From positions 1-37,061 of the forward strand of contig VGLJ01000047.1 in assembly GCA_016866775.1 (NCBI GenBank): DNA of 37,061 nucleotides, written 5' to 3'. The position numbers were made by a program, and so were the translations under genes. The notes under the pieces are model-generated. The model had not been told where the DNA came from. It saw only the letters and a list, made by a program, of their open reading frames with translations, and ran no database searches. The first letter of the stretch is position 1. Every line of letters begins with the position of its first letter. Positions 1 to 37,061 of this stretch are shown in pieces. The DNA is from Candidatus Rokuibacteriota bacterium (GTDB taxonomy: Bacteria > Methylomirabilota > Methylomirabilia > Rokubacteriales > CSP1-6).

Positions 1-1145
1 CCGGGCTCGCCGAGGCCCCCGGCGAGCTCGCGAAACGCCGCGCGCTGCGTGTCGCGCGCGCTCGCGTCGTCGAGCAGGCGCCCCGCCTCATCCGCGAGCG
101 CCTCGGTGGTCGCGTCGTCCTGGAACAGCTCCGGCACCACCGCGCGTCCGGCGACGATGTTGACGAGGCTCATCCACGGCACGCGGACGAGGCTCCGGAT
201 CATGCATGCCGTGAGGCGGGACACCTTGTAGCAGACGACCATCGGCGTCCCGAGCAGCGCGGCCTCGAGCGTCACGGTCCCGGACGTCGCGATGACGACG
301 TCGGCCGCGCGCATCACGTCGTAGGTCGCGCGGGACATCTGAACTTTGGGGGGCTCCGGGCTCCCCCCAAGCCCCCCAGCGCCTCCGGGCGGACGTGAAG
401 TCCGCCCTCCGGCGGGTGCCGAAGCCAAGACGCACTCCACGTGCGTGCCGTCGACCGTCGGTGCCAGCGCGAGCAGCACGCGGGTGTGCCGACGCTGCGC
501 GGTGATCGCTGCGACCGCGTCCCGCATCACCGGGAGCGCGCGCTCGATCTCGCTGTGGCGGCTCCCCGGCAGGAGGCCGAGCACGACGTCGTCGGGCGCG
601 AGCCCGAGCCGTGCGCGCGCCGCGGCGCGGGTCGGCGCGTTGGCGAGCGCGTCGACCAGCGGGTGGCCGACGTACGCGACGGGCACGCCCGCGCGCCGGT
701 AGAGCGGCGGCTCGAACGGAAAGACCGCGAGCACGAGTGAGAGCAGGCGGCGCATCGCGTGCACGCGCCAGCCGCGCCACGCCCAGATCTGCGGCGGAAT
801 GAAGTAGACGACGGGGATGCGATGGCGGCGCGCGGCGCGCGCCAGGCGCAGGTTGAACTCGGGGAAGTCGATGAGCACGAGCGCGTGCGGCCGCTCGGGA
901 CCGGAAAAGCGCGCGCGCAGCCGGCGGTACGCGCGATAGAGCGGCAGCACGCCCGCGGCCGCTTCCGTGGTGCCGACACCCGCGCGCGCCGTCAGGTCTT
1001 CGAGGACTTCCATCCCGGCCGCGGCCATGCGCGCGCCGCCCATCCCGTAGAGCCGCGCGGCGGGCGCGCGCTCGCGGAGCGCCTTGCAGAGCGCGGCACC
1101 GTGCAGGTCGCCCGAGGCCTCGCCCGCGACCAACATGATGTTCAT
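1..1145 (-). CDS. lpxB: Lipid-A-disaccharide synthase (3' end outside window)
   Basis: LpxB joins UDP-2,3-diacylglucosamine and lipid X to make the lipid A disaccharide at the inner membrane face. The frame opens at ATG 1145 (MNIMLVAGEASGDLHGA) and stays open to the window edge, about 381 codons, so only the last residues are missing compared with the usual ~380-400. Family motifs are visible: VAGEASGD at the N-terminus, IDFPEFN, PQIWAW, LLPGSR and the C-terminal SGTVTLEAALLGTPMVV block. The ATG overlaps the lpxI stop (ATGA) and has no clear Shine-Dalgarno sequence, so translation is probably coupled to lpxI. Oddity: residues about 245-269 are a Gly/Pro-rich insert encoded by a copy of a hairpin repeat (341-411). 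The frame is preserved and the C-terminal motifs continue normally, so the gene looks functional rather than broken. Confidence 0.93.
   Translation of the reverse strand, partial: MNIMLVAGEASGDLHGAALCKALRERAPAARLYGMGGARMAAAGMEVLEDLTARAGVGTTEAAAGVLPLYRAYRRLRARFSGPERPHALVLIDFPEFNLRLARAARRHRIPVVYFIPPQIWAWRGWRVHAMRRLLSLVLAVFPFEPPLYRRAGVPVAYVGHPLVDALANAPTRAAARARLGLAPDDVVLGLLPGSRHSEIERALPVMRDAVAAITAQRRHTRVLLALAPTVDGTHVECVLASAPAGGRTSRPPGGAGGLGGSPEPPKVQMSRATYDVMRAADVVIATSGTVTLEAALLGTPMVVCYKVSRLTACMIRSLVRVPWMSLVNIVAGRAVVPELFQDDATTEALADEAGRLLDDASARDTQRAAFRELAGGLGEP
341..411 (-). repeat. Bipartite GC-rich hairpin repeat, copy A, inside lpxB
   Basis: Read on the minus strand this copy has a first hairpin (GGGCGGAC, loop TTCAC, GTCCGCCC), then a G-rich linker GGGGGGCTTGGGGGG, then a second hairpin (GGGGGGAGCCCGGAGCCCCCC) ending in CAAAGTTC. 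The same architecture is seen at 1991-2055, and its second half at 1150-1183. Its length keeps the lpxB frame, adding a Gly/Pro-rich segment. It resembles REP-like palindromic elements in behaviour, but I do not recognise it as a named family. Confidence 0.75.
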
Positions 1146-1987: not shown

Positions 1988-1990
1988 TCG

Positions 1991-2055
1991 AGTTGGGGGG
2001 CGCGAGACGCCGCCCCCAAGCCCCCCCCGCTTCGGGTCGGGAGTGAATCCCGGCC
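1991..2055 (-). repeat. Bipartite GC-rich hairpin repeat, copy C, between the Gfo/Idh gene and lpxI
   Basis: On the minus strand: first hairpin CGGGA-TTCAC-TCCCG, then GGGGGGGGCTTGGGGG, then second hairpin ending GCGCCCCCCAACTC just before the lpxI ATG. The stems differ in sequence from copy A but stay paired and keep the TTCAC loop, which suggests selection for structure. It fills most of the 82-bp gap between the two genes. Confidence 0.7.
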
Positions 2056-2069
2056 CTTCGCGACTGCCC

Positions 2070-3071
2070 TCACGACGGCACGGCCTCCTCGACGACTCCG
2101 TCGCGGATCATGCGCTCGATCTGGAGCGCCATCGCGAGCGACCGGAGGTCGTCCGCCTCGGCCAGCGGCACGGCCTCCCCGGCCCGCGTGCGCCGCATCG
2201 ACTGGATCAGGTGCTGGATCTCGAGCTTCAGCGGGTTGTCGCGGTGGACGAAGAGGTGCTCGACGAACGAGGCCTGGCGATAGCGGATCGACTCGCGGTT
2301 GAGCGTGTACTCCTGCGCCGCCCGGCGGTGGATCTGGATGTCCTGATCCGTGTAGTCGAGGACGATGTACGCGTCCGGCTGCGTGATGGCGAGCGTGCGG
2401 ATCTTCTCCTCGGTGGCGCGGCTCGCGGTGATCGTGGCGACGGTGCCGGAGGCGAAGGCGATCTGGACGGTCGCCACGTCCGTCGCCTCGGAATGCACTG
2501 TCGAGCCGAAGGCCGCGATCCGCACCGGGGGCGCGTCCACGAGCGCCAGCACGATGTCGAGGTCGTGGATCATCAGGTCCATCACGACCGTGTCCTTCTG
2601 CACGCGCGGCACGAACGGCCCGAGCCGCCGGGACTCGATGAGGATGGGCCGGTCGACGATCTTCCTGAGCTCCTGCACGGCGCCGTTGAAGCGCTCGACG
2701 TGCCCGACTTCCAGCATCGTGCCCGCGCGGCGCGCGACCGCGTAGAGCTCGCGCGCCTCGGCGAGCGTCGGCGTGATCGGCTTCTCCACGAGCACGCTCA
2801 CGCCGCCCTCGAGGAGCTCGCGCGCGACGTGGAAGTGCTGCTCCGTCGGCACGGCGACGCTCGCGACGTCGACGCGGCCGATGAGCTCGCGATGATCGCT
2901 GAAGGCCGCGGCCTCGTACTGCGCGGCGACCGCGGCCGCGCGCGCGGGATCGATGTCGACGACCCCGACGAAGTCCACGTCCCACAGCTCCGCGTAGACG
3001 CGGCCGTGGTATTGGCCCATGTGGCCCGCGCCCACGACCGCCGCACGCACGCGCCCGCCCCCGAGCGCCAT
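2070..3071 (-). CDS. Gfo/Idh/MocA-family oxidoreductase of the lipid A cluster (GnnA-like position)
   Basis: NAD(P)-dependent sugar-type dehydrogenase of 333 residues. Visible are the Rossmann motif VVGAGHMGQYH (residues ~11-21), the catalytic EKP motif in VLVEKPITPT, the VGHVERFNGA motif, and the MIHDLDIVLAL motif typical of the C-terminal domain. ATG 3071 shares one base with the lpxA stop (TGATG), so the two are co-translated. It lies between lpxA and lpxI/lpxB. In Acidithiobacillus ferrooxidans a family member, GnnA, oxidises UDP-GlcNAc at C3 in the same neighbourhood, so that a partner aminotransferase, GnnB, can make a diamino sugar for lipid A. No gnnB is present here, so the substrate is unproven; a UDP-sugar precursor of lipid A is the best guess. 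Confidence 0.88.
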   Translation of the reverse strand: MALGGGRVRAAVVGAGHMGQYHGRVYAELWDVDFVGVVDIDPARAAAVAAQYEAAAFSDHRELIGRVDVASVAVPTEQHFHVARELLEGGVSVLVEKPITPTLAEARELYAVARRAGTMLEVGHVERFNGAVQELRKIVDRPILIESRRLGPFVPRVQKDTVVMDLMIHDLDIVLALVDAPPVRIAAFGSTVHSEATDVATVQIAFASGTVATITASRATEEKIRTLAITQPDAYIVLDYTDQDIQIHRRAAQEYTLNRESIRYRQASFVEHLFVHRDNPLKLEIQHLIQSMRRTRAGEAVPLAEADDLRSLAMALQIERMIRDGVVEEAVPS

Positions 3072-36687: not shown

Positions 36688-37061
36688 ATGAAAAAGTTCC
36701 TTGCAGTCGTGATGAGCGCGGCCATGGTTGCCGCGTTCAGCCCGCTCGCCGAGGCGCAGTCGAGCTGCCCTGCTGAAGTCGCTCAGGCGAAGGAGCTTCT
36801 GAGCAAGAAGTCCGGCCCTGCGGCTCCGCGCTCGCTCGCCGGTTCGCGCATGGATACGCAGGCCCCGCGTGGCCAGAACATCCAGGCCCCGCGTGGTCAG
36901 GAGACGCAGGCGCCGCGTGGTCAGGACGTGCAGGCTCCGCGTGGTCAGGACGTGCAGGCTCCGCGTGGTCAGGACACCCAGGCTCCGCGCGGTCAGAACA
37001 TCCAGGCTCCGCGTGGTCAGGACACCCAGGCTCCGCGCGGCCAGGACACCCAGACTCCGCG
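36688..37061 (+). CDS. Secreted octapeptide-repeat protein, partial (runs off window)
   Basis: I do not recognise a family. The frame starts at ATG 36688 with AGAGGCG just upstream. It encodes a signal peptide (KKFLAVVMSAAMVAAFSPLAEA, cleavage probably after AEA), a short mature segment with one Cys and a likely helix (SSCPAEVAQAKELLSKKSG), a linker (PAAPRSLAGSRMD), then the repeat [TVI]QAPRGQ[DNE]: eight full copies and a partial one before the window ends. The repeat balances Arg against Asp and is rich in Gln, Pro and Gly, so it is probably disordered. The codons GCT, CGT and GGT dominate the repeats whereas neighbouring genes prefer GCG, CGC and GGC, suggesting high expression or recent array growth. 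It is the only plus-strand gene here. Confidence 0.85.
   Translation, partial: MKKFLAVVMSAAMVAAFSPLAEAQSSCPAEVAQAKELLSKKSGPAAPRSLAGSRMDTQAPRGQNIQAPRGQETQAPRGQDVQAPRGQDVQAPRGQDTQAPRGQNIQAPRGQDTQAPRGQDTQTP
36856..37061 (+). repeat. 24-bp in-frame tandem repeat array
   Basis: Eight complete 24-bp units plus 14 bases of a ninth, each encoding [TVI]QAPRGQ[DNE]. The core CAGGCTCCGCGTGGTCAG is nearly invariant; variation is in third positions (GCC/GCG/GCT, CGT/CGC, GGC/GGT) and in the two codons at the unit junction (GACACC, GACGTG, AACATC, GAGACG). Units have no spacers, and the array continues beyond the window. Confidence 0.95.

Follow-up and report, generated by a model that had tools for sequence, protein, structure and literature searches.

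A palindromic repeat of a REP-like family lies in frame within the lipid A gene lpxB of a Rokubacteria-like genome

Palindromes that lie in frame within protein genes have been described before, in Rickettsia under the name of RPEs and in a number of further bacteria as intragenic REPs. In the available parts of three papers (PMC10969869, PMC6649704, PMC3733652), RPEs are described as short palindromic repeats that occur in frame in many unrelated protein genes; their length is given as ~150 bp in the portion at hand of the first of these (PMC10969869), which also describes MITEs as small palindromic repeats, not autonomous, that lie within genes or close to them. REPs, according to the accessible part of PMC3733652, have a high copy number, form hairpins, lie <20 bp from gene 3′ ends between neighbours that are mostly codirectional or convergent, and in some cases are in frame within ORFs. 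As far as this REP survey (PMC3733652) is covered here, it has no Rokubacteria entry. A literature search for a palindromic element or interspersed repeat in Rokubacteria likewise found none, and neither did a broader search, among the matches listed. Here, we describe such a repeat in a Rokubacteria-like genome, where one copy lies within lpxB, which is an essential gene of the outer membrane, and compare it with these systems.

The genome is a metagenome-type assembly of 5.13 Mb in 159 contigs, and the window (the whole stretch of 37,061 nt that was analysed) is its contig C47. An earlier note on this DNA had placed a ~71-bp two-hairpin element at 341-411, inside lpxB and with the frame kept. 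The element is present and the gene is LpxB by both PF02684 and TIGR00215, while the extent given there stops ~9 nt short, at the base of the 5′ hairpin (Table 1). RNA folding of 343-418 (minus strand) gives −56.3 kcal/mol vs −39.5 ± 3.45 in shuffles (z −4.87), and 0/200 dinucleotide shuffles were as stable. The lpxB frame does stay open across the element, where the translated stretch reads ASAPAGGRTSRPPGGAGGLGGSPEPPKVQM.

Table 1. Coordinates of lpxB and of the repeat copies within the window.
Feature	Position	Strand	Basis or remark
lpxB (lipid-A-disaccharide synthase), open at contig edge	3..1145	−	TIGR00215, E 4.1e-79; PF02684, E 3.8e-86
Two-hairpin palindromic repeat	341..421	−	in frame in lpxB; conserved core from 420 to 348, with a short tail reaching ~341
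5′ hairpin: outer stem, GGA/GGA internal loop, inner stem, loop TTCAC	380..414	−	RNA fold; family covariation
3′ G-rich/C-rich hairpin with GGGGGGCTTGGGGGG motif	347..379	−	RNA fold; motif exact at 363-377
Truncated copy with the 3′ hairpin alone, spanning the lpxI stop codon	1148..1184 (also given as 1142-1184)	−	sequence; GGGGGGCTTGGGGGG motif search
Second full copy, between Gfo/Idh-type gene and lpxI	1990..2068	−	model match 2012-2067, E 3.1e-10

The window holds further copies of the repeat. The truncated copy encodes the C-terminal tail of LpxI, GGGGGRPEPPNSG, with the LpxI_C domain ending at residue 263 of 281, so that two consecutive lipid A proteins (LpxB and LpxI) carry repeat-derived residues. 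The Gfo/Idh-type gene at 2070-3071, a neighbour of lpxA/lpxI, has a sub-cut-off match (E 1.1e-63) to the UDP-GlcNAc 3-dehydrogenase model NF040723, a function associated with GnnA-like enzymes of 2,3-diamino lipid A. At the far end of the window, a 24-bp tandem repeat (36834-37061) continues up to the contig end.

Copies of the repeat are dispersed over the whole genome. A blastn search with an 86-nt query from the lpxB site finds 42 places in the own genome, the best other copy being 95% identical over 73 nt, which points to recent spread. The motif CTGGGGGGCTTGGGGGG (≤2 mismatches) has 128 matches vs 6 for its reversed control. A covariance model built on 38 copies, the window copy not among them, gives 149 matches among 150 candidates scored, 148 of them with E ≤ 6.9e-6 and one at 0.036; this count is to be read as at least 148 strong copies, and the true number may be higher. 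Together with the excess of GGGGGGCTTGGGGGG in the window (8 occurrences with ≤3 mismatches vs 1.58 expected), it makes the lpxB segment more than a chance resemblance. The copies follow one plan, in which GCA[CG][TC]CGC is followed by GGA, a variable stem, a TTCA[CT] loop, the returning stem, GGA and GCG, and then by GGGGGGCTTGGGGGG, a variable stem-loop, CCCCCC and AT[GC]T. Beyond the GCA...ATGT ends conservation fades, and a weak ATCAATC-like tail alone is seen outside. Each sense frame is free of stops in 118-126 of 131 copies and each antisense frame in 78-107, and the mostly stop-free sense frames make the repeat suited to survival within genes. Four copies (C20:24764, C5:52235, C3:112122 and C52:20781) have a longer 3′ module in common and apparently form a composite subfamily; two of them sit inside Mfd and HAMP-kinase ORFs.

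Most copies (126/149) lie outside called genes. Genes were called by a simple codon-score script rather than a published tool, and genes that it missed probably account for neighbours that lie several hundred nt away. Of the extragenic copies, 116 are flanked by a called gene on either side: 82 lie between codirectional, 29 between convergent and 5 between divergent neighbours. Where codirectional neighbours both lie within 200 nt (56 copies), 46 copies lie closer to the stop and 9 closer to the start, and the median distance over the set is 5.5 nt to the stop vs 21 nt to the start. This placement is the pattern given for REPs in the available part of PMC3733652.

Alignment with relatives supports an insertion into LpxB. 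The earlier note had named the same segment in all related LpxB proteins, on unrelated DNA, as the mark of an ordinary loop; instead, the segment is missing from 32/32 aligned relatives, these being 29 of 57 relatives with a match plus 3 named Rokubacteria. In alignment A3, the other 29 sequences also lack it, and two Rhodocyclaceae LpxB proteins (L110 and L111) have unrelated extra residues, a longer loop of their own, at the same site. By LpxB, the closest named relatives are Candidatus Rokubacteria genomes, at 60-66% identity. Among 25 relatives re-aligned for counting, the net gain is 8-23 residues, most often 21 (13/25); since 21 residues (63 nt) are fewer than the 72-nt core would add, some native residues have been replaced or lost. 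An AlphaFold model of LpxB (33 sequences, mean pLDDT 90.4) puts the insert in a low-confidence coil between the helix at 233-241 and the strand at 268-271, with pLDDT < 50 at 253-260, a result in favour of the note, which had asked whether it falls in a surface loop; the insert is predicted to be a disordered loop. The best PDB matches to the model are the LpxB entries 5w8s, 5w8n and 5w8x. Their rmsd is high, which we presume reflects a domain-swapped crystal dimer.

LpxB is one of several proteins that contain a copy. A search of the genome for intragenic copies, as the note had proposed, finds 23/149 that overlap called ORFs (16 sense, 7 antisense), and by position, read by eye, 12 of these are internal, 3 lie at the N terminus and 8 at the C terminus; the terminal overlaps may be annotation effects. 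In-frame insertion is less rare than had been stated, both in this genome and in the REP literature, going by the available part of PMC3733652. Five of the 12 internal copies are net insertions relative to relatives, namely those in LpxB, HtpG, LarC, a GcvT-like protein and LigD. The repeat is missing from 14/14 LarC relatives (net 22-27 aa), from 13/13 relatives of the GcvT-like protein (net 19-23 aa) and from 2/2 HtpG relatives, with a net 19 residues against the full-length one, the other ending at a contig edge past the site. For LigD, the site is covered in 9/13 loci, and the net gain is 17-19 aa in 7/9, 14 in one and 1 in one, this last relative carrying a longer segment of its own at the site. 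With outlying relatives left out, the net insertions span ~51-81 nt across the five genes and match no single element length, so either insertion did not proceed cleanly with a fixed length or indels followed later. Two further internal copies were rejected as net insertions: a degenerate copy in a PBP-PASTA protein (C102:4745; net −9 to +6 vs 12 relatives, the 13th ending at a contig edge) and one in an AMP ligase (C11:10965), whose loop is about equally long in PDB 5u2a. The Mfd copy (C20:24764) falls in a protein of which residues 211-372 are unaligned in an alignment to a solved structure. Copies in an amidohydrolase, an FAD oxidoreductase, a ceramidase-like protein and a HAMP kinase were judged by frame, codon score and Pfam only.

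Related repeats occur in 17/59 relatives (E ≤ 0.01, stricter filters, own genome not counted) and are limited to the same family, with 17/35 relatives inside it vs 0/24 outside. Their copies show the same plan with different stems. Among the relatives' loci read, one copy, in locus L222 of G030, sits deep within a called ORF in antisense, and internal copies may thus recur in other genera of the family. This cognate repeat, at ~1300-1560 of its locus, is in frame within a hydantoinase-like ORF, named by eye.

Several other explanations of the lpxB segment can be weighed against these data. Loop length does vary in other LpxB proteins (L038, L039, L110 and L111) and the genome is GC-rich, so that this lineage might simply have an LpxB with a long Gly/Pro loop, its palindrome a by-product of GC-rich codons. 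This is very improbable: a repeat dispersed over the genome has copies up to 95% identical to this DNA over 73 nt, and we reject the reading on the grounds that the lpxB copy matches, at 363-419 and with E 9.3e-11, a covariance model built without it. Nor do we give much credence to an assembly artefact in which two loci were joined at a repeat. The assembly is of metagenome type with 159 contigs, some of which end near copies (C59 and C115 have a common copy with the same flank), but both flanks of the insert belong to one LpxB in the order seen in relatives, and HtpG, LarC, the GcvT-like protein and LigD are likewise continuous across their inserts, again in the relatives' order, which makes such a join extremely improbable.

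Two readings concern the RNA. Ribosomes could skip the hairpins, as in yeast mitochondria, leaving LpxB without the loop; stable hairpins do lie within several housekeeping genes, and the available text of PMC6649704 reports palindromic elements that are bypassed in Magnusiomyces mitochondria. The internal copies examined keep their frame open, however, so skipping is not needed, and we regard it as highly unlikely here. Alternatively, the copies could be functional structured RNAs, selected as 3′-end hairpins for termination, mRNA stability or attenuation, in which case the lpxB copy may influence lpxB expression. Covariation in the 5′ hairpin is strong (95.9% of cells paired, two-sided changes in 9/12 pairs, a score of 0.471 vs a shuffle mean of 0.106 and ≤0.103 when slid), the 3′ hairpin exchanges pairs too (TGCG/CGCA, CCCG/CGGG, CGCG/CGCG), and copies lie close to stop codons. 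Yet copies can face either way with respect to the neighbouring gene, no T run follows the hairpins in the copies read, and Rfam yields no match in the window at gathering score and nothing above threshold, only weaker matches, in 8 copy-bearing loci. Stem symmetry could also be maintained by processes at the DNA level, and a role inside lpxB is not required as an explanation, so we consider selected RNA function rather unlikely.

We therefore favour, with considerable confidence, the reading that the lpxB segment is a copy of a non-autonomous, REP-like repeat that has spread in the genome and persists where it does least harm. In this scheme, the repeat would spread through the Rokubacteria-like genome and its copies would survive directly behind stop codons and seldom in promoter regions, while copies within genes would be kept only where frame and fold survive, in insertion-tolerant surface loops and at protein ends. 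The LpxB copy would be translated without skipping into a flexible Gly/Pro-rich loop of ~20 extra residues, tolerated and presumably neutral rather than selected for. We infer that purifying selection accounts for the map of copies; an insertion preference for stop codons would account for it as well.

The mover of the repeat does not appear to be the usual one. PF01797 (Y1/RAYT transposase) has no match in the own genome (97.5% complete), while 5/14 control genomes are positive, and it is absent from 16/17 relatives with the repeat, G009 alone having one; a RAYT-driven REP is thus not supported. Neither a transposition event nor an empty site at the DNA level nor a target-site duplication was observed; the nearest relatives have ≤67% protein identity. 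The repeat is presumably mobile. A broader proposal is possible, if doubtful: a clade-specific Rokubacteria repeat that spreads without RAYT, is targeted to stop codons or survives nowhere else, preserves its stems through compensatory change despite sequence turnover, and repeatedly supplies housekeeping proteins with ready-made in-frame loops. That the usual transposase is missing raises the question of what moves these repeats. The copies also amount to a series of insertion experiments made by nature in the conserved enzymes LpxB, HtpG, LarC and LigD, and Gly/Pro segments of this type in the lineage's proteins come from the repeat and are not necessarily functional motifs.

Compared with the known systems, the Rokubacteria repeat is a new REP-like family. 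Like MITEs, it is small, palindromic and found near or in genes; neither terminal inverted repeats nor a duplicated target could be made out clearly at its ends, where conservation is weak. With GTAG/CGTC REPs, it has in common a high copy number and a location by gene 3′ ends; it differs in its two hairpins, which are unequal and have an almost constant G6-CTT-G6 linker, in the lack of an end tag (near the 149 copies, GTAG occurs in 5 on the 5′ and 3 on the 3′ side, and CGTC in 12 and 16) and in a host genome without a Y1 transposase. Lacking both the defining tags and the transposase, it is not filed as a GTAG/CGTC REP, though it works alike. Set against RPEs by description only, it is shorter (~75 bp), mostly extragenic and hosted by a GC-rich, Rokubacteria-like genome, and it resembles them in being in frame in several unrelated genes (LpxB, HtpG, LarC, GcvT-like and LigD). 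In-frame palindrome insertion, best known in the intracellular Rickettsia, is thereby extended to a GC-rich environmental lineage, in which one genome holds many copies.
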